The notes under the pieces were generated by a model, which saw only the letters and a program-made list of their open reading frames with translations, made no database searches and was not told the origin of the DNA. The position numbers and the translations under genes are program-made. DNA of 32,552 nt from NCBI GenBank assembly GCA_015663245.1, contig DQSN01000079.1, forward strand, positions 1 to 32,552, written 5' to 3'. The DNA comes from Leucothrix mucor. Its GTDB lineage: Bacteria; Pseudomonadota; Gammaproteobacteria; Thiotrichales; Thiotrichaceae. Shown in pieces: positions 14,060-32,407 of this stretch (position 1 is its first letter; every line of letters starts with the position of its first letter).

Positions 14060-15352
14060 TTATAGCTTCAAGCGGTATTCAATAAAAGCATCGTCGCGTA
14101 TGCCTTGTAGCCATGTGTCGTAGCCACCTTTGGTTTTCTTCTTAGCCAATATTGATTTTGCAGATGCGCGTGTTGATGCTCTATTCGCATCAATACTTTT
14201 GCGTTCTAATACTTGAATAATATGCCAGCCAAATTTGCTTTTGACTGGTTGGCTGATAGATTTTAAAGGTGCGTTTTTTACGATAGCAGCAAAGCTAGGA
14301 ACATAAGTTGCAGGCTTTGCCCAGCCTAAATCACCACCGTTTACAGCACTACCTGTATCTGCCGAGTTGGTTTTGGCGAGTGTTGAAAAGTCACCGCCAG
14401 CGAGTAATTTGTTGCGGATTTTAATGGCTTTTTGTCGCCCTTGGCTGCTTGTGTCGCGAATAAGTATATGGCGCGAATGTGCTTGTTGTTCTAGTTGTTG
14501 TGAGCCACCACGCTTGGCCATTAATTTTAAAATGTGAAAGCCTTTACTGTCATGTACGACAGGGGATATTTCGTCAACGCCCATTATGCTCAAAGCACGA
14601 GAGTAGGATGCAGGCAGTTCTTGATTTGTTTTCCAGCCAAGGTCATTGCCTGCTACTCCATTACTCGCAAATGTCTGCTGCCCTAACAACTGTTTTCGTA
14701 GCTTCTCTGCTTTATGTCGTGCCGCTGTAAATTGAGCCAAAGGAATGCCATTTGCTGCGGGAATGAATAATTCTTGCAGATGATATTGAGCGCCTTGGTT
14801 GATAATAGCGGCTTGAGAGAAAATAAGGTCACTTACTTCTTGCTCAGATATATTTGATCGTTGTCCTGATTGACGTTGTTTTAGTGCATCAATCACTAAG
14901 CGGGAACGAATATCTTCACGAAAATCAGTGTATTTAACACCTTGGCGTTGGAGCGCGATACGAAAATCAGCAAGGGAAAGTTTATTCTGTTTAGCTATGC
15001 CTTCGATGGTGCGATTTAGCATCACATCATCAACTATAATTCCAAGCTCTTTGCCATATTGAGTTTGTACTTTTAGTAATACTAATTGCTCCAGCGCTTG
15101 CGTGACGAGTTTTTTATCTTCAGCAGCAGGGGAGGCTGCCTTCATTAATTTGGCGCGTGCAAGTACGCTACTTAACATGACTATATCATTGTTAACAACT
15201 GCGGCAATACGGTCTAATTGCTGTTCTGCTGCGCTTGCTAACTGGCTTGTTAATAATAAAGAAGCTAATAGTAAAGTGGGTGTTTTAAATAGAGAATGTA
15301 CTTTTCTATAAGCCAATGTCGTCACTTCCATTTTTTTGTTATTCATATCCAT
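14060..15352 (-). CDS. surA: Periplasmic peptidyl-prolyl isomerase/chaperone SurA
   Basis: Signal peptide; LDRIAAVVNNDIVMLSSVL; two parvulin domains (ARHKAEKLRKQLL..., SRHILIRDTSS...GGDLGWAKPATYVPSF); downstream of lptD. Confidence 0.93.
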   Translation of the reverse strand: MDMNNKKMEVTTLAYRKVHSLFKTPTLLLASLLLTSQLASAAEQQLDRIAAVVNNDIVMLSSVLARAKLMKAASPAAEDKKLVTQALEQLVLLKVQTQYGKELGIIVDDVMLNRTIEGIAKQNKLSLADFRIALQRQGVKYTDFREDIRSRLVIDALKQRQSGQRSNISEQEVSDLIFSQAAIINQGAQYHLQELFIPAANGIPLAQFTAARHKAEKLRKQLLGQQTFASNGVAGNDLGWKTNQELPASYSRALSIMGVDEISPVVHDSKGFHILKLMAKRGGSQQLEQQAHSRHILIRDTSSQGRQKAIKIRNKLLAGGDFSTLAKTNSADTGSAVNGGDLGWAKPATYVPSFAAIVKNAPLKSISQPVKSKFGWHIIQVLERKSIDANRASTRASAKSILAKKKTKGGYDTWLQGIRDDAFIEYRLKL

Positions 15353-17510
15353 ATATTTTATCTTCTAGTACATTATTTGCTTTATGTCCTAGATTGCCTA
15401 ATCCTTTTAACTCAAATTGAAGAAAAATAGCATCATCATAGTTGTGGTTATCTGAGGTTAGATATTTTCTACCTACAAGTCGTGCTTTCATGCAACAGTT
15501 TTGATATTCGATACCTGCTAGTGTCTCCAAATTTCGATCATTCTTCAAGTCGTGATCAACACGTCCGATGATTGATAACTCTTTACTCACAGGAATAGCA
15601 AATGATGCGCTGGTTTGTTTAAGTTCATCATTTAAACTTCTGTACGACACATTAGCAATTCTGTTTTTATCATCTTTATAGTTTAGACGAGTTTCTGTTG
15701 CTGTCCATTTTTGTGTTTTAGGATCCCAAAAAGATGCGGTAGAAAGCCTTACATTGTCATTAACTTTGCCACTAAGCTCAAATGCAAACTCAGATTGCGC
15801 ATTGGTTTGTACTGTCTCGCCAGGTAAGGTAACTTTTCTATCATCAAAGTGAAAAATCTGACCTGCGCTAAGCTGTAATAGTTCCTTTCCTGTTTCACGA
15901 TTTTGTATGCGGGACGTTACCGCAACGGTTAATTGATTACTATCACCAATGCGATCTTTACCTGTATAGCGGTTCTTAGAAAAAAGCTGGGTGCTGGTAG
16001 AAAAATCTGTCCTAGCGGTATCAAAGACAGGAATATCGCTCTGATCTCGAAATGGCGTGTAGGTATAGAATAGGCGTGGCTCTAGCGTCTGTGTCAGTTT
16101 ACCACCCGCTAGGGTTCTATCAAAAAACAACCCTGCATCTAGGCTTAAGGTGGGCAAGGTACGACTGTGCCGATTACCTGCTGGGTTGTTTTTTAAATTG
16201 TAATAGGTATGTCGCAGTCCTACAGAAGGTTTGAAATACCACGCATCATTACCGAACTTCTTACTGGCATCAATATTGACATCAAATCTCACGCCCGTTG
16301 GTCCATCATTTTTATCAAAGTTACTCAACTCAGTATCTAGTGATAGAGTGATATTATTGGGTAGTATTTTAGGGGTGTAGTTAAATTTCAATTCAGGTAA
16401 TTTTGAATAAGATGAATTTGTTGAATCTAATGTTTGATAGTCAAGGGAGGCTGCACTTAAACGCCAGTTTCTTCCCACTTTGATGATCTCGATGCGACGC
16501 TCTAAAGCGGAAGTGCTGGTGCCTGATAGTGACTTTCCAAAATCATCAAAATATTCTTTATCAGAAACCCCCTCGGTCTGGACATTAAATCGCACAGAAT
16601 CAGAAATTTTTGAGCTGTGTTTGATCTTAAAATAATCGCGCTGCTTGTCATTGGAGGCTCTGTCGCGAGGGAGTATTTCATACTCCCAAATACCTTGATG
16701 CTTTTTAGTTAGATAGCGAAATTCATTCTCAAGCTTTAGACCGCGTTTACTGAGATATGAAGGGGTTATAGTCGCATCATAACTAGGTGATAAATTTAGA
16801 TAGTAAGGTATCGATAGGGTAGTACCCGATTGTTCGGATAAACCTATCGTTGGAGTGAGGAAACCTGACTTTCTTTGATTGTTAAGTGAAAAACTTAACC
16901 ATGGAAAATAAAAAATAGGAGTGTCACCAATTTTTAATGTCACATCTTTGGCGCTACCGACCTGTTTGTCTTGATCTAGTTTGATATTAGCCGCCGCAAT
17001 ATGCCAACTATTTAGCGAGGTTGGACAGCTTGTATAAGTAGCATCTTGCAACTCAAGTTGAGTGGCATTTTTTTGAATAACATTGCGGCTACGCCCATTG
17101 CTTGTAGATTTTTTAAGTTGGTAGCGTACATTTTTTAATTGACCACTTTGAGAGTCAGTTTGATAATTAATCGAATCGCTATTTAATTGGATATTTTTAT
17201 TGGATAAAATCACCTTGCCGTCAGCGATAACGGTGTTATTTGCACCGCCAAAACTAGCATTTTCAGCATTAATGGTCAGATCATTTTGCTGAATAATTAC
17301 ATTGCCGACTAAACTAGAAACGCTACTACGGTTAATCAGCCCTGAGCCTGCCTCTAGGTATACCGCACCTTTAACAGGATTATTTGTTATCGTATTAACA
17401 TCAAAAATTGTAGGGATGGCGCACAAAGGGAATTGGCTTTCTGCTTGTGCCTGTAAAGCCAGCAAGCTAAGTCCTGATATGAGTCCAAGTTTGTAATTTA
17501 TTATTTTCAC
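15339..17510 (-). CDS. lptD: LPS-assembly protein LptD
   Basis: 723 aa; signal peptide; OstA-like domain and IFYFPWLSFSLNNQRKSGFLTPTIG; adjacent to surA. Confidence 0.93.
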   Translation of the reverse strand: MKIINYKLGLISGLSLLALQAQAESQFPLCAIPTIFDVNTITNNPVKGAVYLEAGSGLINRSSVSSLVGNVIIQQNDLTINAENASFGGANNTVIADGKVILSNKNIQLNSDSINYQTDSQSGQLKNVRYQLKKSTSNGRSRNVIQKNATQLELQDATYTSCPTSLNSWHIAAANIKLDQDKQVGSAKDVTLKIGDTPIFYFPWLSFSLNNQRKSGFLTPTIGLSEQSGTTLSIPYYLNLSPSYDATITPSYLSKRGLKLENEFRYLTKKHQGIWEYEILPRDRASNDKQRDYFKIKHSSKISDSVRFNVQTEGVSDKEYFDDFGKSLSGTSTSALERRIEIIKVGRNWRLSAASLDYQTLDSTNSSYSKLPELKFNYTPKILPNNITLSLDTELSNFDKNDGPTGVRFDVNIDASKKFGNDAWYFKPSVGLRHTYYNLKNNPAGNRHSRTLPTLSLDAGLFFDRTLAGGKLTQTLEPRLFYTYTPFRDQSDIPVFDTARTDFSTSTQLFSKNRYTGKDRIGDSNQLTVAVTSRIQNRETGKELLQLSAGQIFHFDDRKVTLPGETVQTNAQSEFAFELSGKVNDNVRLSTASFWDPKTQKWTATETRLNYKDDKNRIANVSYRSLNDELKQTSASFAIPVSKELSIIGRVDHDLKNDRNLETLAGIEYQNCCMKARLVGRKYLTSDNHNYDDAIFLQFELKGLGNLGHKANNVLEDKIYGYE

Positions 17511-23470: not shown

Positions 23471-25033
23471 TTATAAAACCTGCACCCGAAACTGAATTTG
23501 GCAAGAGGGTGTACCCGCCGCTGTATTGGCAGAAAGTTGCCCTGTTGGGATGATTTTAATATGCGTTACATTACTGTCTACACCATCTGCATCGGCAATG
23601 GGGGTATAGTTATAGCTTGTGCCACCATCATTGGAAAAGCTTACGCTATCTGTATTACTGCTTAAATTAATAAAATTGTATGCCAAGCCACTAGCGATAG
23701 CGCCATCGCTAAAGTTTACAGGACCACCTCCTGCGTTTATATCATTCACATAGAGAGCGGTTGTGCTAGGAATCACATCAATAATGCTGATTGAGTTATT
23801 GTCTGTTGCACTGTAACCATGATTTGAGAGGGTGATGGTGTATTCAATAATCGCCCCTGGTATTGCTTTAGGTGATGCTGTTCCATTCACAGGGTCTGAT
23901 ATGGTTTGACTGGTTTTTTTCATGGATATTTCTGGCAACTGCATTTCGGGTGTGCCAAGGCTTGCACTTATAATACTCCACTCAATATCATCTATTTTTA
24001 CCCAGCTGCGATAAGAGTTATCGGAAAAAAAGTTTGTCCGAAAGCTTATATTAATTGTTTGATTAGCATAGGGGGCTAGATCAAGTGATCCTCGCTGCCA
24101 GCCAGTATCAACTAATTCAGAGGAATATTGCTTGCGGCGTCCAATACCTGCTGTTGTGATGCTGAGAGCATTTCCTGTATTGGCAATATTTAATTGGGTA
24201 TGGTTTACGGGTGTATTGTTTATTGCTAGCTGAAAGAAATCATAACTAGCATTGTCATAGGCTTGTAGTTGAAAGAAAAAATCTAAACGACCCGTGTTTG
24301 TGGCAGGAATAGTGATGGACTTACTGAGGCGAATACTTTCTCTTGTGCCTCCCGCGCCATCCTCACATTTATTTCGATAACCTAATAAGTGCCATTTACG
24401 CCCTGTTGTTGAAGCAGGAGTATTGGTATTATTGGGGGAGGTATCTGCATTATTAATTGCTTGCTCACTGCATCTGATTGTACCGCTATATGTATCTCCA
24501 TAGCTGGTGTCATACACTTCATTGTTTTCCGCGCCATTGGCGTTGACATTACTAATGGTCCAATTGCTGGGTACTGAACCACTAGAGTGCTCAAAGTTTC
24601 CATTAATGGTTGCTTGGCTGTTTGCTCCTTTTGCCCCATTTTCAATCGTATCAAAATAAAGGTAGTAAGTTGTTGCGCCTGCATCTTCAAAAATAAATTT
24701 TATTTCACCTTGCCCGTTGGATGCTGCATCAATCACGCCGTTATAAATTCGGTCAGAAAATTCTTGTTGCAGTGATAGAGACTCATTTGGGCGCACGATA
24801 CGGGGAGAGTTATTATCAAATGTTCCTGTGACGCCTAGTTGTGTCATTAGCACATTAAAATTAACATCAAATTTTATGGTGCTATTGACGGCAGTATTAG
24901 CAGGTATAGTAATAGGTACACGGTAATGCCAATTTGGTGCAATATTAGGTGTGTTTGGATCGTACCAAGAGTAGCCAAAGAAACTGCCTAATGAAAGGAG
25001 TAGCAAGGTGAGTAGTTTTGTAAACTTTTTCAT
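23471..25033 (-). CDS. Secreted DUF11-like protein with possible DUF2341-like N-terminal domain
   Basis: Signal peptide MKKFTKLLTLLLLSLGSFFGYS; NWHYRVPITIPAN...; C-terminal KAIPGAIIEYTITLSNHGYSATDNNSISIIDVIPSTTALYV. Confidence 0.75.
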   Translation of the reverse strand: MKKFTKLLTLLLLSLGSFFGYSWYDPNTPNIAPNWHYRVPITIPANTAVNSTIKFDVNFNVLMTQLGVTGTFDNNSPRIVRPNESLSLQQEFSDRIYNGVIDAASNGQGEIKFIFEDAGATTYYLYFDTIENGAKGANSQATINGNFEHSSGSVPSNWTISNVNANGAENNEVYDTSYGDTYSGTIRCSEQAINNADTSPNNTNTPASTTGRKWHLLGYRNKCEDGAGGTRESIRLSKSITIPATNTGRLDFFFQLQAYDNASYDFFQLAINNTPVNHTQLNIANTGNALSITTAGIGRRKQYSSELVDTGWQRGSLDLAPYANQTINISFRTNFFSDNSYRSWVKIDDIEWSIISASLGTPEMQLPEISMKKTSQTISDPVNGTASPKAIPGAIIEYTITLSNHGYSATDNNSISIIDVIPSTTALYVNDINAGGGPVNFSDGAIASGLAYNFINLSSNTDSVSFSNDGGTSYNYTPIADADGVDSNVTHIKIIPTGQLSANTAAGTPSCQIQFRVQVL

Positions 25034-28000
25034 GGTTTGCTGTCCTCCATTATTTCTGTTTTTATTGTTGAGTCATTATCATAAGTCTTTAATTTGAGCG
25101 TTTCTTGATCGAACTTATAGAGAATCTGTGTAAAAAAGCCTTCAGCGGTATAGCTACTGGTATCAAACTCATTATCAGTAAAGCCTTCAAAGTTATACCC
25201 AAGACTGATCTTGGTATTTTTAGCAGGGGAAGCACTCACAGAGACACCTGCTACCTTTTCAATATTGTCATTCTCCCAGTCACGCGAATAGCCTGCATGT
25301 GCGCCAACCGCCCACATTTTGCTAAGTTTGTATTTTGCTTCGATAAGTCCCACATCCACAGTACTGTCTTCTTGTTGCTCTGCATCATTAGACGACATGA
25401 TGTGTTGTATACCGTGGTGTAGTCCTACTTCAAAGTCATCATTAATTTGCTTGTTAATGTGAATATTGTTGATGAGCTTTCTAGTTTGCGTATGCTCGGA
25501 GCCATTTTTATCTGTCTCATCAATATAATCGAGACGTTCAAGTACGCTATAACTAGCATCGAAAGGCTGCCATGCTGCGCCTAAACTGATAGTTGATTGT
25601 TGATGTTGCTCATTATTATGCTTGCTGGAGCGTAAACTTCTAATTTTGGCGCTCAGGTGTTTGCCTTCCGCTATTTGGTGATTTAGTTCTAGCTGTACAT
25701 TAATTTTATCTTCAAGATCACCATCACGGTGTTCAAAGCGTCCCGAGCTACTCCAGCTATTATTTTTCCATTTATACGCTAGGCTAGTGGCAATATAATC
25801 ATCACGGTTGCTACCATGTTCTTTTAAAGCATCGTCTGCCGATGTTGTCTGCTTGATGATTGAGTCAATGGTGGTAGCTTGATCAAGGCTAAAATCAATG
25901 AGTAAATGATCGCTTAACTTTGCATGCTGTGATAGCCCAACCAGCGCATAGGTATCTGATCGATCAACTTTATTTTCTCTGCTTAGCGATGTTTTTAGTT
26001 TTGCGCCTTGCCATAATGAGCTGCTGATACCCACGCGAGTACTTTGTGTGATGGAGTCGTCATCATCAGAAACTTCGTGCTCTGCAAAGAGATTAACTCT
26101 ATCGCTAAGAGCAACATCTAGCCCAACAATTGCTTTATCAGGATCATTGCTTGTGTGGTTTCTGCCTGCTATTTGCCTCTCAATATTGCCATGTAAAGTG
26201 GCTTTTCTGTCCTTTGTAGAAATGCTGCCACCCAATAGCAGTGCGGTACTGCCAGAACTATCGCTTACTGTGGTATTTTTAGATTGGCGCACTCCAATAG
26301 AGAGGTTGGAGTTCTCAAACTGTTTTTCAGCTTCGATTGAAAGACGCTGTGTAATATCATCATTTTGTAGGTTTGTTTGTTGTGAAATATCACCTTTAAT
26401 TTTAGTATTTGCATTGATTGTATAGCGACTACTTAGTCCTAGCTTTTGTGTTCCTTTTTCACTGGTTTTCTGTTGCCCTAAGCCAAAGTTAGCTTCTTGT
26501 TTGCGTATATAAGCAGTTGATTCTGTCTTTTCAGTGCTTTTCTTTATTTCAGCCAACCACGCACGCCCTTGAGATTTTTTGTTATCGCTTGTCGTTTGTG
26601 TTTGCGCTACTTCTGCATGTATTTCTGTATTTTTGCTAGGCTTATAAGTAAGGTCTAACCCCACAAGTCGACCTGTGGAGTCATCACTATTACCTTCTTG
26701 GATAATACTTAGGCCTGTTTCGAGCTTGTTATCATTAAACTTAGCCGCTACACGCCCACCTGCCACTAAATTTTTCTCATTATTGTCATCGCTTTCATAA
26801 TCGACCACAATAATATTGGTGTTTAGATTTTTATCGCGCCCAGCAATAGGAAATTTGAAGAATAGGGTGCGGCTGTCGTAATCAATATCGTAATCTTTAT
26901 GGCGCACCATCGTTTGTGAGGAAACAATTTTCCCAGAGTTAAGCTGGTCACGTGCCTCAAGGCGGATTACTTCACTATTTTGCACAATAGGACGGCTTAA
27001 ATGATACAGCCCTGATGTACCATCACCGATGATTTCATCACGTTGGTGACGCTTTTCGGTATAACTGGCAAAGAGGTTATAGCTAAATTTATCACCATGA
27101 TACTCACTGTGTAATCCATCTAAAATACGCTCGTAACGTGATAATTCAGTGACCGTTAAACCTGTGCGGTAATCCCCAAATAGTGCATAAAATTGGTTTT
27201 TTTCTAGTTTTAGATAAAGTTTGTGCGAACTACTGGTTTCATATTGGCTATTAGATTTGTCTGCATACACGGTATACCACGTATCGGGGTCAATATTGCC
27301 TTCAAGCTGTGCGCCATTTTCAGTATTTTTATGACGTTGTTTTGCACTATCGTAGGCGAGCGTTAAGAGGTAATCCCCCTTAATTCTACCTTTAGCAAAT
27401 AAAGCGAGTCGCCCATGCTTGTAGTTTTCAGCCTGATTTTTATCGATAAGTGTTTGCAGATTGCCACTCAACTTTTTATGGGCGAGTGTACCTTCTGCAA
27501 TACCAACCAGAATCCAGTTGCGTAGTTTAGGCTTTAACCATGCGTTAATATTTTGTGTTTTATTAGCCAAATTAAAATCAATACTAATCTGTCCTGAGCG
27601 TGTAGTAGGAGTAAGTTTGATATGAGCAATACCACCCTCCTTAATGTAATACTTGTAGTTGCCCTTTGTGCTGGACTCATCATCAACTGTGTCAGTATTA
27701 CTTTGCTGTGCAATATTGTAATCCCCAGCTTTAATACTAAAGTAGCCATGTGTATTCGCACGCATCGGAAAGCCGTCTTCATCTTTTATACGTAGCGTAA
27801 TAATGGGTGAGTTTTTCCCGTCCGCAATCAGCAATGATTCTTTTTCTAAATACTCAATATTAGAGGGTGTTCCCGAGAAGTGGATAGTATGCGTTTTACG
27901 CGCTATTTCTTTGCCGCTCTTATTGAGTAAAATAGCCGTCAAAATATTGTCGCGCTGCTTAATATTAATATCGACCCCACGCCAGCGACGAATGGTTACA

Positions 28001-29718
28001 GTACCCGCTTTATTGGTGGTGCTACCATCGTAATTAAGCATGCTGATCGGCTTGTCGTTGAGGTACAGTTTTACTTTCTGTTTAGGAGGGTGCTTGATTG
28101 CAATTTTGGTTGAGGCTATTGCTGGCACATAGTTATGTGGTGGCCACAAGATTTCAAAGCCAATATTTGCATTATTAACGAATTGTTTATTGTATTTTTT
28201 TAATGGATCGTTGCTACTGTTTTTAAGTGCTTTGTTTGATTTTTTCTCTAATGGAATCGCCAATTTATTCTTCGCAACATAAAAATCAGCACGCCACAGT
28301 GTTTTGCTATTTACAAATTTTGAAATTTTACTGCCTGCACGATCATTATCATGGTCACAATCAATTGCACGATAGCCAGTAGGGAGGCTATCAATATCCA
28401 ACTGCATTACATGTGCTTGTTGGCTAAGACCTTCCATATGCCAATAGCCATCTTTGTCACTGAGTACGCTACGTCCTGATTCAGTATAAATTCGTGTGTT
28501 TGCTAAGGCTTTTCGTGGCGCTGCTTTTTCACAACCGATATAAACACGTCCCGTAATAATGATGGTATTTGTCATTAACACGTCTTCGATACGTACTCTA
28601 GCTTTAGCAATATTAGAGGTGTCATTTTGGGAAAAAGCTTGCGCGCGGTTAGTAATATCAGCAATGGCTGTATTGATACCAATTTTTGTTTTGTAGCGTA
28701 ATACCCAGCCTGAATCTACGTTACTAGGCATATTACCCAATGTAAAAGTAAGGCTACGACCTTGGATTCTGATCGCCGATTCAGGCAACACTGCACCATT
28801 TAGAAGTGCCGTACCATTTTGATAACGAAGACCAATTGGCAAAGTGTCCTGTATTTTTATATCGTTAAGGGGTTTGTCGATACTACTGTTGCGTAAAGTG
28901 ATTTCATAGCTAATCACATCTCCAATAGAGGCAGATTTTTTATCAGCTGTTTTACTTAGGTTGAGTGTGCCAACAGGGTCAATGACAGCAGCCGTCATAC
29001 TGATATCAGTGCTATCAACTTGATCATGGTAACTAACGGTCAACTTTGCGCCACGTTTGACGTTAAATCTTCCATCAAAATTAACAGTTTCTCCCGAGTG
29101 CGTGGGTACTGCGCCAATAAAAATACCTGAACTGGGAGAGGTTTCTTTTAGCTGGATGACTTCTTTATCGTTAGTCTCTGGAATGGTAACGGTTACAAAA
29201 ATAGTTTCCCTAATCTTTGGATCAAGGTTTTGGTCAAAGTCTTGAACACGAATGATAATAGGCTCATTAGTAATAAACTGATTTGCTTCTATTATTTTTA
29301 CAGGAGCAGGAAAGATAATTTTATCGCCATTAATACGCGTGATGACATCAATGGGGTTCCATAATTTCCCACCATTTTCACTGCTGTTATAAGCAGAGGA
29401 TGATAGTGTCGTGTCTTCGCCTCCATCTGAAAGGCGATGAAAACTAATAATAGAAGGTGTGTAAGTATCGGTTGTTATTAAAACGCTGGCTGTTGTTAGT
29501 TCTTGTGAGCCATCAACTGAGTAATTGGCAGTAGCTACACTGTTGATGACTGTTCCAGATAAAGTTGCAGCCATGCTCATTTGTAGTGTTGATAAAATAA
29601 AAACAAAGCTCAAAATCATAGACAGCACAAAGCACTGGCATAGTTGAGCCAGTTTGTTTTTGCTGCGCGTTAAAGCTTTCATCTCAACGCTATGTGAGTT
29701 ATGTATTTTAGGGTTCAT
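25030..29718 (-). CDS. Large secreted protein: N-terminal DUF11-type region, carboxypeptidase-regulatory/SdrB-like region, C-terminal predicted outer-membrane beta-barrel
   Basis: 1562 aa; signal peptide; SASIGDVISYEITLRNSSIDKPLNDIKIQDTLPIGLRYQNGTALLNG; ALANTRIYTESGRSVLSDKDGYWHMEGL; then long amphipathic-strand-rich C-terminal half ending GFFTQILYKF plus 26-aa tail. Confidence 0.75.
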   Translation of the reverse strand: MNPKIHNSHSVEMKALTRSKNKLAQLCQCFVLSMILSFVFILSTLQMSMAATLSGTVINSVATANYSVDGSQELTTASVLITTDTYTPSIISFHRLSDGGEDTTLSSSAYNSSENGGKLWNPIDVITRINGDKIIFPAPVKIIEANQFITNEPIIIRVQDFDQNLDPKIRETIFVTVTIPETNDKEVIQLKETSPSSGIFIGAVPTHSGETVNFDGRFNVKRGAKLTVSYHDQVDSTDISMTAAVIDPVGTLNLSKTADKKSASIGDVISYEITLRNSSIDKPLNDIKIQDTLPIGLRYQNGTALLNGAVLPESAIRIQGRSLTFTLGNMPSNVDSGWVLRYKTKIGINTAIADITNRAQAFSQNDTSNIAKARVRIEDVLMTNTIIITGRVYIGCEKAAPRKALANTRIYTESGRSVLSDKDGYWHMEGLSQQAHVMQLDIDSLPTGYRAIDCDHDNDRAGSKISKFVNSKTLWRADFYVAKNKLAIPLEKKSNKALKNSSNDPLKKYNKQFVNNANIGFEILWPPHNYVPAIASTKIAIKHPPKQKVKLYLNDKPISMLNYDGSTTNKAGTVTIRRWRGVDINIKQRDNILTAILLNKSGKEIARKTHTIHFSGTPSNIEYLEKESLLIADGKNSPIITLRIKDEDGFPMRANTHGYFSIKAGDYNIAQQSNTDTVDDESSTKGNYKYYIKEGGIAHIKLTPTTRSGQISIDFNLANKTQNINAWLKPKLRNWILVGIAEGTLAHKKLSGNLQTLIDKNQAENYKHGRLALFAKGRIKGDYLLTLAYDSAKQRHKNTENGAQLEGNIDPDTWYTVYADKSNSQYETSSSHKLYLKLEKNQFYALFGDYRTGLTVTELSRYERILDGLHSEYHGDKFSYNLFASYTEKRHQRDEIIGDGTSGLYHLSRPIVQNSEVIRLEARDQLNSGKIVSSQTMVRHKDYDIDYDSRTLFFKFPIAGRDKNLNTNIIVVDYESDDNNEKNLVAGGRVAAKFNDNKLETGLSIIQEGNSDDSTGRLVGLDLTYKPSKNTEIHAEVAQTQTTSDNKKSQGRAWLAEIKKSTEKTESTAYIRKQEANFGLGQQKTSEKGTQKLGLSSRYTINANTKIKGDISQQTNLQNDDITQRLSIEAEKQFENSNLSIGVRQSKNTTVSDSSGSTALLLGGSISTKDRKATLHGNIERQIAGRNHTSNDPDKAIVGLDVALSDRVNLFAEHEVSDDDDSITQSTRVGISSSLWQGAKLKTSLSRENKVDRSDTYALVGLSQHAKLSDHLLIDFSLDQATTIDSIIKQTTSADDALKEHGSNRDDYIATSLAYKWKNNSWSSSGRFEHRDGDLEDKINVQLELNHQIAEGKHLSAKIRSLRSSKHNNEQHQQSTISLGAAWQPFDASYSVLERLDYIDETDKNGSEHTQTRKLINNIHINKQINDDFEVGLHHGIQHIMSSNDAEQQEDSTVDVGLIEAKYKLSKMWAVGAHAGYSRDWENDNIEKVAGVSVSASPAKNTKISLGYNFEGFTDNEFDTSSYTAEGFFTQILYKFDQETLKLKTYDNDSTIKTEIMEDSKP

Positions 29719-29742
29719 TGTTTTTATTATTTTTTATAAGTC

Positions 29743-29785
29743 TTAGGAATATTGTTTATAAATATTGGGGAAACAGTATTCCTAA
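29743..29785. other. Intercistronic hairpin downstream of the 337-aa gene
   Basis: TTAGGAATA (29743-29751) / TATTCCTAA (29777-29785) plus inner GTTT/AAAC pairing. Confidence 0.6.
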
Positions 29786-29830
29786 AACTGTACGACTAGT
29801 TTTCTTTAGACGTACGAGTTTTTCATTATT

Positions 29831-30844
29831 TTAATTAACAGTAGCGATGATGGTTAGTGTTGCTGTTTGACCTGCAGCTAGATCAAAAGGAGTAGTTGAT
29901 ACTGCATTTCCTGTCGCAGAAGCATTGGTACTTGTTCCACCTGAAATTGTAGGGGTGCCTACAACTGTTAGATCCGCAGGTACGTCATCTGTTATTATAA
30001 TACCTGTTGCTGTGGCTGCTGTTGCAGCATTTACTACCGTAATAGTGTATTCAATAGTGGCACCAGGGATACGCTTTGCATTCGCTGCTACATCGCTGTT
30101 ATTAATCTTCATCTTAGTAACAGTCGATACTTTTTTAACGGTTAAATCCGCAGTATGTATCGTATAAGTATTAATAGCAGAATGGGATGCATCTCCATCA
30201 CCATCACCCGCTGCTCCTGCACTATCTGCCAAAACAGTTTCTACTACTGCTGCATCATCAGCTCCAGATGAAGTTGCTGCTGCCGCAGCCGCTGCTCCAA
30301 CTACCGTTGCTGTAAGACCTATTTTTGAAGTTGCTGCATTAACGATGGCTCCACCACTTGCAGGCATATCACAAAGAACGGTAATGGTAGCTTCTCCATC
30401 TGCTACAAGGTTGACACTTGAAGGGGTGTCACAACTTGTAGGATCAAAGTTATCACCTGAAAGTGCTTTAGAGACCGCAAAACTAAAGTCCTCAGTGCTG
30501 TTGCCATCATTAGTAAGTGTAAAGGTAATGGCTTGATCATTTTTTCCTGGCACAGTAGCAACATTTCCTGAGGTAGCTGTTACGGTTAAATCAATTTTTT
30601 TATCCACTTTGAACGTAGTTGCAGTACCAGCGCCATTACCAGGAGTGCTATTTCCAGTTCCAGAACTTTCAATTTTTGTTTGGGCAGTTCCTCCTACCTC
30701 GTAATTAATAGTCGCTGTATTTGCTATAGAGGTACCCGCTGCTGTTCCAGCCGCCCAAGATGCACTTGCAATAGCAATCGCTAGTACACTAATAGAAAGG
30801 GGAATTAACGTACTTGTTTTAATTATTTTCATGGTTATTCTCAT
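29831..30844 (-). CDS. Secreted DUF11-like Ala/Thr-rich protein, candidate major surface subunit
   Basis: Signal peptide; GTAAGTSIANTATINYEVGG; AKRIPGATIEYTITVVNAATAATATGIIITDDVPADLTVVGTPTISGG. Likely start MKIIKTST at 30832. Confidence 0.75.
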   Translation of the reverse strand: MRITMKIIKTSTLIPLSISVLAIAIASASWAAGTAAGTSIANTATINYEVGGTAQTKIESSGTGNSTPGNGAGTATTFKVDKKIDLTVTATSGNVATVPGKNDQAITFTLTNDGNSTEDFSFAVSKALSGDNFDPTSCDTPSSVNLVADGEATITVLCDMPASGGAIVNAATSKIGLTATVVGAAAAAAATSSGADDAAVVETVLADSAGAAGDGDGDASHSAINTYTIHTADLTVKKVSTVTKMKINNSDVAANAKRIPGATIEYTITVVNAATAATATGIIITDDVPADLTVVGTPTISGGTSTNASATGNAVSTTPFDLAAGQTATLTIIATVN

Positions 30845-30869
30845 TTTTTGGTTTGTGGTTTTTTTCTAC

Positions 30870-30902
30870 TGTAATCACCTAAAAAAAAGGGGAGTGATTA
30901 CA
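30870..30902. other. Intercistronic inverted repeat upstream of the 337-aa gene
   Basis: TGTAATCAC / GTGATTACA 9-bp arms flanking an A-rich loop; overlaps the stop codon of the 173-aa gene. Confidence 0.55.
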
Positions 30903-31419
30903 ATAATTTTGCTTGAAAGCTTACGTTTTTTTGCTCTGCTGGTGCTAAGTCTTGCAGATAGATCCAGCGAATATGCGTATAGTCTTTTGCGCTAGCAGGG
31001 ATTGCATCACCTTCTTTATTTAAAATGGTTAAGGCTTCTGGTTTGGCCCAGTGCTTACCGCCGTCAACAGAAAATGTAATGTCACTATTTTCACCTTGAG
31101 CAGAACCTACTTGATACAAGGTGTGCTGAGGAATAGGGTTTATCAACTTAATTTTATCAGCAGGTTCAGTGCTAATATTTGTGAAGGTATTTTGATAAAA
31201 AAGTACCGTATTAGGAAGTACTTTGGTGGCAGGAAATAGTTTTTGTACCTGCTTGCCATCTTCAATAACTGTTTTTAATATTTGTACGGTAGATTTAATT
31301 TCTATATGCCCTTGTTTTTCAGCGTAACTATAGGCGAAACTACCAATTAAAAGTCCAATAATAGCTGATGCTTTTAAAATATTTAAGATTTTCATTTTAT
31401 TATTCTCTTTATTAATCAA
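30898..31419 (-). CDS. Small secreted DUF11-like protein
   Basis: Signal peptide MKILNILKASAIIGLLIGSFAYSYA (likely start 31395); KVLPNTVLFYQNTFTNISTEPADKIKLINPIPQHTLYQVGSA. Confidence 0.7.
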   Translation of the reverse strand: MINKENNKMKILNILKASAIIGLLIGSFAYSYAEKQGHIEIKSTVQILKTVIEDGKQVQKLFPATKVLPNTVLFYQNTFTNISTEPADKIKLINPIPQHTLYQVGSAQGENSDITFSVDGGKHWAKPEALTILNKEGDAIPASAKDYTHIRWIYLQDLAPAEQKNVSFQAKLL

Positions 31420-32407
31420 TAATATAAGTTATTAAAATTGCAAAATGATCAGATGGCTTCATCTGTCCTAGTACTAAAGTGGCAGAATTTTTATTACTAC
31501 TGCCAAAATCACCTTGATCTCTATCTTTTAGGTCACTAAGTGAAATATTATTTAGTTTTAATGAACCTGTTTTATAGTGCATATGTAGTGGTGTAGGATC
31601 GGTAACGACTAAGTTTTTAATCACACCACTTCCTGTTGCACTCACCGATATTTCGTAGGTAACGGCAGTGCCTGGCATGACACGTTCTTTATTATATGGA
31701 CCAACTATTTTCACTATCTTTTTGCTCATGTTTAGGCGTAAAGATGTGGTTATATAAGTCCCTGTTACTGCTGTCTTCCCTTGATCTTTTAGCAACACAA
31801 GATCAACGCCATTGTCTCCCGCAGCAGCAATACTTTGACCAATTGTATATTGACTTATATCCGTAGTATCCGATGTCGCGATAAGTACAATTTTACCAGT
31901 TTCTGATCTACCCAAAGACTCAGGAATACTACTTAGCACATAGATGATGACCGACTCATCAGCCGCCAAGGTTATTTCATTAATATTAACTAAGTATTGG
32001 CTATCAGCATTATTAGTAGAGTTATTTTGTAAGCCTGAAATATTATTTGTTTCTACCCATATTGAATTAACAACTGGATCAAAATTATCACTCGTAATAT
32101 TTGCATGACTTGTTAATAGAAAGCTTTCTGTACCATTGCCTGTATTTGTAAGCTGAAAACTAAGTATCCGATCATTAGCAGGCGTCACTGTAGGCACAGC
32201 CTGACTATCCAAAGAAACCAAATCCATATTCAATACTTCTGCTACTGTAAACTCCGTGGTCGCGCGTAGCCCATGCTCAGGAATACCATCAGCGGTTACA
32301 ACAACCGTATTTGAAATAACAACACCCGCAGCTACTCCCTTCGCTTGCACACTAAAAGCAAGCAATAGAAGTAATAGATTGAGTAGGCTTGTGACAATTA
32401 TTTTCAT
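31412..32407 (-). CDS. Secreted DUF11-like protein, paralogue of the 337-aa protein
   Basis: Signal peptide; AAGVVISNTVVVTADG; DRILSFQLTNTGNGTESFLLTSHANITSDNFDP; RVMPGTAVTYEISVSATGSGVIKNLVVTDPTPLHMHYKTGSLKLN. Confidence 0.75.
   Translation of the reverse strand: MKIIVTSLLNLLLLLLAFSVQAKGVAAGVVISNTVVVTADGIPEHGLRATTEFTVAEVLNMDLVSLDSQAVPTVTPANDRILSFQLTNTGNGTESFLLTSHANITSDNFDPVVNSIWVETNNISGLQNNSTNNADSQYLVNINEITLAADESVIIYVLSSIPESLGRSETGKIVLIATSDTTDISQYTIGQSIAAAGDNGVDLVLLKDQGKTAVTGTYITTSLRLNMSKKIVKIVGPYNKERVMPGTAVTYEISVSATGSGVIKNLVVTDPTPLHMHYKTGSLKLNNISLSDLKDRDQGDFGSSNKNSATLVLGQMKPSDHFAILITYIID

Follow-up and report, generated by a model that had tools for sequence, protein, structure and literature searches.

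We analyzed a stretch of 32,552 nucleotides (the window, always meant at its full length) from a genome of 2.7 Mb in 252 contigs, for which the nearest named relatives found were Leucothrix/Thiotrichaceae metagenome assemblies. Five genes follow one another on the minus strand at 23471-32407 and encode proteins of 331, 173, 337, 1562 and 520 aa (P0005, P0004, P0003, P0002 and P0001, respectively). The first-pass annotation of this DNA had described five consecutive minus-strand genes, each with a signal peptide, and an ATGA overlap between the gene of a barrel protein and that of the 520-aa protein. All five open reading frames were present where it had placed them and on the same strand, all five proteins opened with a signal-peptide-like stretch, and the overlap was located at 25030-25033. 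The start of P0004 is probably the ATG at 31395 rather than the TTG of the open reading frame at 31419. The genes and their features were as follows.

31412..32407 (-), P0005, 331 aa: N-terminal hairpin, NEW3/DUF11-like middle domain, C-terminal truncated DUF11
32234..32341 (-), putative donor hairpin of P0005, starting GVAAGVVISNTVVVTADG (tail-HMM, 11.8 bits)
31415..31714 (-), truncated (putative acceptor) DUF11 of P0005, reaching the protein C-terminus (TIGR01451 and local DUF11 profile)
30898..31395 (-), P0004, 173 aa: one truncated DUF11, without donor hairpin
29831..30844 (-), P0003, 337 aa: putative donor hairpin, middle domain, truncated DUF11
30659..30748 (-), putative donor hairpin of P0003, GTAAGTSIANTATINYEVGGTAQTKIESS (from sequence)
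29834..30088 (-), truncated (putative acceptor) DUF11 of P0003, reaching the C-terminus (Pfam profile positions 8-85 of 114)
29739..29789 (-), strong stem-loop between the P0003 and barrel genes (MFE -25.6, z -7.2)
25030..29718 (-), P0002, 1562 aa: putative donor hairpin, beta domains, complete DUF11, SdrD-like and Ig-like domains, predicted C-terminal giant beta-barrel
29461..29571 (-), putative donor hairpin of P0002, ATLSGTVINSVATANYSVDGSQELTTASVLI (the window copy scores weakly, orthologues more clearly)
28612..28965 (-), internal complete DUF11 of P0002, with its own last hairpin (Pfam DUF11 and local profile)
25117..27195 (-), predicted outer-membrane beta-barrel of P0002, approximately residues 842-1534 (AlphaFold2 and Foldseek)
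23471..25033 (-), P0001, 520 aa: variable N-terminal binding region (choice-of-anchor-J-like), C-terminal truncated DUF11
23474..23941 (-), truncated (putative acceptor) DUF11 of P0001, the sole part conserved between genera (local profile and locus comparison)

Outside the operon, positions 14060-17510 of the window resembled surA and lptD by eye, that is, general outer-membrane biogenesis genes.

DUF11-type matches were detected in all five proteins. The TIGR01451 E-values were 1.4e-12 for P0002, 5.9e-8 for P0003, 1.6e-6 for P0005, 2.7e-4 for P0001 and 0.0047 for P0004. Pfam DUF11 (PF01345) scored above its cut-off in P0002 and P0003 and below it in P0005, while the domains of P0001 and P0004 were detected by TIGR01451 or the local profile only. 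The earlier claim of a DUF11-like module in each gene stood as far as the matches are concerned, but in the four small proteins the module was truncated, not whole. The Pfam/NCBIfam search of the five proteins returned nothing beyond DUF11-type and weak matches. The PDB sequence search returned no informative homologue for whole proteins; PDB 5t98 matched a single Ig-like domain of P0002. PDB 9ifr, a solved DUF11 domain of 123 aa from an OmpA-like protein, matched the DUF11 of P0002-family proteins (E 1.1e-5) and would serve well as a modelling template.

We searched 57 related genomes with P0002 and obtained matches in 33, with long orthologues of about 38-77 % identity in several genera. The order P5-P4-P3-barrel (the counterparts of P0005, P0004, P0003 and P0002) was observed in eight complete Thiotrichaceae-type loci (the window, L001, L033, L034, L036, L037, L038 and L039) and partially at the cut contigs L002, L035, L040 and L041. 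The flanking genes differed among loci sharing this order. Since the order is kept in independent contigs, the operon goes beyond chance. The gene for P0001 followed the barrel gene in most loci, occurred in two copies in L036 and was absent beside the barrel in L033, L039 and L040. In L034, the P4 and P3 genes were separated by 389 bases (L034:12768-13156) that fold into very long inverted repeats (MFE -163, z -15.8) and probably represent a small mobile element.

Further, we examined a class sample of 369 genomes, in which a long barrel match was present in 25, P4 in 30 and both in 24. The association of the barrel family with small DUF11 proteins, on which the earlier reading depended, was borne out across these genomes: 24 of the 25 barrel genomes carried P4 (Fisher p = 5e-31), in 20 of the 24 on one contig within 10 kb. 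In the remaining 4 the two genes were on separate contigs of fragmented assemblies. Matches to P4, some weak and partial, were found in 44 of 399 genomes across the phylum, and the same operon appeared in the gene maps drawn for a number of the P4-positive genomes. Related operons occur across Gammaproteobacteria and other Pseudomonadota, and were plasmid-borne in Novosphingobium sp. THN1 and Acinetobacter haemolyticus w12. The A. haemolyticus plasmid p4 (CP085288.1, L063) is mobilizable, and in its operon the subunit gene upstream of the barrel was broken into several pieces by frame changes.

A second, enlarged operon type, with parts of about 170, 1000, 2100 and 900 aa, was present in the same family. 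Such operons, observed in this family and beyond at L044-L049, L058-L062, L144 and L145, comprise P4, a subunit of ~1000 aa, a barrel of ~2100 aa and a protein of ~900 aa. They often add a small lipoprotein; the one copy that was tested had an OmpA domain. At five other loci (L051, L052, L053, L056 and L057) a different barrel of ~1200 aa, from the same superfamily, was situated beside giant DUF11/Ig-repeat proteins, with no P4 partner seen. This pair looks like a two-gene giant-adhesin system.

The truncation was assessed with a local DUF11 profile built from internal domains of the large proteins. Measured against it, the DUF11 of P0001, P0003, P0004 and P0005 halted at the C-terminus before the last hairpin. 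Among 552 proteins of these loci, C-terminal DUF11 matches ended at profile positions 92-98 in 93 of 96 cases, and most internal, complete matches extended to about position 130-150. The consensus of the missing last hairpin was aGtaiNtAqat....tSNtasAtVtV, and P0003, P0005 and P0002 begin with AGTxIxNTATxxY...S... directly behind the signal peptide. Judged by its sequence, this N-terminal stretch is the missing piece of DUF11. Hairpin and truncated domain were both carried by P3 and P5, the hairpin alone by the barrel protein, and the truncated domain alone by P4 and the putative tip protein. The hairpin stood ahead of different domains in different proteins. This donor/acceptor pattern of truncated domain and N-terminal hairpin is a new result of the present analysis.

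A hairpin profile was trained solely on internal last hairpins, with the first 200 residues of every protein excluded. When it was run against 270 N-termini intended as background, almost all of the top 30 were matching proteins of the enlarged operons. The combined donor detector, which also drew on a profile of the N-terminal hairpins as such, called donors in 42 of 54 barrels and in 73 of 97 other DUF11 proteins near a barrel, compared with 1 of the 37 P4 proteins and none of 124 distant genes. Five of the 12 missed barrels were of the different 1200-aa type, one was a split gene, and most others presented the motif by eye. Appending the hairpin behind the truncated domain of P0003 raised the Pfam DUF11 score from 40.5 to 44.1 bits (shuffled control, 41.1 bits). 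In the Pfam permutation test the hairpin added about 1-6 bits, and shuffled hairpins at most 0.6. An earlier version of this test, with a crude signal-peptide rule, gave a mean gain near zero for some families, because leader residues remained attached. The reverse search of internal tails with the N-terminal hairpin profile gave a moderate enrichment (17 in the top 100 vs 5 expected). The hairpin is short and individual sequences score low against the profile, many of them under 8 bits; the proposed homology between hairpin and tail is likewise short, with modest single-sequence statistics.

In homologues of P0001 from other genera the C-terminal 150-190 residues were retained at about 46-57 % identity and the rest was replaced. 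The N-terminal domains identified by Pfam in P0001-type proteins were H-type lectin (H_lectin), nidogen-like (NIDO), P-domain (P_proprotein), fibronectin III (fn3) and GEVED; P0001 itself gave a weak choice-of-anchor-J match. L141 carried two tip genes with an H-type lectin. The 520-aa product had been proposed as a tip-like binding protein, and we agree, because only its N-terminal domain gets swapped. Its layout would be that of a two-domain tip adhesin, and we regard P0001 as a tip-adhesin candidate. Elsewhere in its own genome we found acceptor-only DUF11 proteins at L154:7131-13151 (G000:C86) and L153:9792-11242 (G000:C199), one of them 2006 aa long and bearing SdrD_B and GEVED domains. 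These may be alternative tip proteins. P0005 would be an accessory or minor subunit, and P0004 a conserved core component, adaptor or cap.

P3 was situated upstream of the barrel in nearly every mapped operon. The stem-loop between the two genes was strong in L001, L034, L035, L036, L037, L038 and L128 (z -4.7 to -8.1) and absent or weak in L033, L039 and L041; in most relatives its position was shared and its sequences were unrelated. In fimbrial operons, for example, an element of this kind typically increases the yield of the gene product encoded upstream of it. Because P0003 lies upstream of the barrel nearly everywhere and is followed by the stem-loop in most relatives, it is likely to be the major, repeating subunit, the role already suggested for the 337-aa protein. 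Its gene had also been called hairpin-flanked, which was right for the side toward the barrel gene (z -7.2) but weak on the other (z -1.7). The AlphaFold2 model of P0003 was all-beta with a pLDDT of 93.6, and Foldseek returned generic Ig-sandwich matches only, including RbmA, SafDAA and a CfaB fusion. The monomer model is consistent with packing of the hairpin on its own C-terminal domain, on the middle domain or on a neighbour, and does not show which.

The C-terminal half of the 1562-aa protein had been read as an outer-membrane barrel, and structure prediction agreed with this. The AlphaFold2 model of P0002 residues 489-1562 contained 33 long consecutive strands, starting from about residue 951 (mean pLDDT 73.8, pTM 0.47, one long stretch below 50). 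At low TM-scores throughout, its Foldseek matches included outer-membrane barrels such as SlpA, SprA, LptD, the barrel of the Mtr complex, TonB-dependent receptors and the PapC usher. The model supports a very large outer-membrane barrel in this half of P0002 and does not support a specific family. In the barrel protein of L128, an OmpA peptidoglycan-binding domain (residues 912-1020), absent from the window P0002, lies between the DUF11 domains and the barrel. Its place in this relative suggests that the region ahead of the barrel sits in the periplasm, which would count against a simple route of the fibre to the surface.

The first-pass annotation had noted no usher or chaperone. The usher family (PF00577) had no match in the own genome or in 8 other system-carrying genomes tested, and PapD-type chaperones (PF00345) had none in the own genome. 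Relatives with ushers had these genes elsewhere, away from this system. The control sets for both searches mistakenly included G141, a genome without this barrel match. The parts of the operon resemble chaperone-usher pili (FimA/FimH/FimD; PapC) in their incomplete Ig-like subunits, putative N-terminal donor, candidate donor-less two-domain tip adhesin and predicted outer-membrane barrel, a layout from which a shared working principle would be predicted (PMC9715654). The likeness of the subunits (incomplete Ig fold plus N-terminal donor) lies in the sequence pattern alone, and the domain families are unrelated. Here the fold is DUF11 and the donor is seemingly a hairpin, whereas in chaperone-usher pili it is one strand; the predicted barrel has about 33 strands vs 24 and itself bears a donor hairpin.

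Donor-strand chains without chaperone-usher machinery, like those proposed here, are formed by TasA fibres, archaeal bundling pili and archaeal threads, but in single-membrane hosts with no outer-membrane barrel. In the threads of Sulfolobus (Saci_0406) the N-terminal tail of one subunit completes the head at the C-terminus of the adjacent one, a donor/acceptor layout shared with the operon proteins, and no chaperone or usher was identified in the thread gene cluster (PMC9715654). TasA fibres, from a Gram-positive bacterium, form by donor-strand exchange and do not need the chaperone-usher machinery of Gram-negatives, and TapA was suggested as the source of the first donor strand (PMC9674648). 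Our P0004- and P0003-family profiles had no match to TasA, AbpA or AbpX. A relation between P0001 and AbpX was not significant (E = 0.15) and is a lead only. Type V pili of Bacteroidota also use donor-strand exchange without a chaperone-usher, but their subunits start out as lipoproteins that an arginine protease processes (PMC9715654), whereas the leaders here read by eye as ordinary Sec signal peptides with no obvious lipobox cysteine. Our literature search found no paper linking DUF11 to donor-strand assembly in Gram-negatives. A donor-strand type of mechanism is already known, and the parts found here belong to none of the known fibre families tested.

We propose that the product of the operon is an adhesive fibre on the cell surface, with DUF11 domains joined through the exchange of donor hairpins, a reading that we consider evenly balanced as a whole. 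Its parts differ in strength. A surface-exposed, adhesive system is quite probable; pairing of the hairpin in trans is favoured to a lesser extent, formation of a polymeric fibre only slightly, and the role of the barrel as exporter is tentative. According to this proposal, Sec would carry the subunits across the inner membrane. The C-terminal, immunoglobulin-like DUF11 of a subunit would lack its last hairpin, which the N-terminus of the next subunit would supply. The incomplete domain may first be completed transiently, by the N-terminal hairpin of the barrel protein or in cis, and would then be passed to the N-terminal hairpin of the following subunit. P0003, with both halves, would repeat along the chain, and P0005, also with both, would be a minor subunit. 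The chain would begin with the tip P0001, which has no donor, and end at the barrel protein P0002, which has no acceptor; P0004, with the incomplete domain alone, may cap, nucleate or adapt. A P0002 barrel of 30 or more strands would anchor the fibre base in the outer membrane and would probably serve as assembly and export platform, thereby taking the roles of usher and anchor.

The strongest alternative, which we consider unlikely, takes type IX secretion as its model. That system has a very large barrel, SprA, and diverse cargo with a common C-terminal Ig-like domain. The truncated C-terminal DUF11 could similarly be a targeting domain recognised by the giant barrel, directly or through the barrel hairpin, and the proteins would be displayed singly, with no polymer. 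As in type IX secretion, a very large barrel is accompanied here by diverse proteins that end in one Ig-like domain behind unrelated N-terminal domains; SprA, whose size class the barrel shares, was among the Foldseek matches, and acceptor-only proteins also occur elsewhere in the genome. No sequence relation to type IX secretion was found and the operon has no other type IX component. SprA_N had no match in the system, but none in the controls either, so that its silence carries no weight; the Foldseek likeness to SprA is one of size and barrel class. However, targeting by the C-terminal domain leaves unexplained why P0003 and P0005 carry both hairpin and truncated domain, and why a stem-loop marks P0003 for high expression.

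Less probable still is that, instead of a fibre, the barrel and the DUF11 proteins make up a lattice that resembles an S-layer or spans the periplasm. SlpA of Deinococcus radiodurans likewise has a very large outer-membrane barrel with an N-terminal extension, and its complexes ranked with the best matches that Foldseek gave for the barrel model, at a TM-score below 0.2; an OmpA peptidoglycan-binding domain, fused or separate, is also present in related operons. We know of no DUF11 donor/acceptor partners of SlpA. Against a lattice, the lectin and other binding domains of the tip-like proteins point outward, and the donor/acceptor pattern fits a linear chain. Least probable is that the hairpin folds back on its own protein as a circularly permuted domain in an operon of ordinary DUF11 surface proteins and a large porin: AlphaFold places the P0003 hairpin within the monomer at high confidence and self-complementation was also reported in Saci_0406 predictions (PMC9715654), but different domains stand behind the hairpin in different proteins, and cis pairing cannot serve the barrel protein (hairpin without incomplete DUF11) or P0001 and P0004 (incomplete DUF11 without hairpin), because each holds only one of the two halves.

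Few classes of outer-membrane fibres are known, namely chaperone-usher, curli, type IV and type V. Assembly by donor-hairpin exchange may represent an undescribed Gram-negative class, in which DUF11 hairpins are exchanged without a dedicated chaperone, a barrel of >30 strands with a terminal donor hairpin is the anchor and export platform, and the system is widespread in Proteobacteria; this extended reading is more doubtful than any of its parts. If it is true, a further class of outer-membrane fibre, wide in environmental Proteobacteria and undescribed as far as our searches show, would be added to those known. DUF11, long of unknown function, would gain a role as a fibre-building module, and the stalked display of lectins and other binding domains by bacteria without ushers would be explained. 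The donor/acceptor rule would further let annotators tell subunits, tips and anchors from sequence alone.
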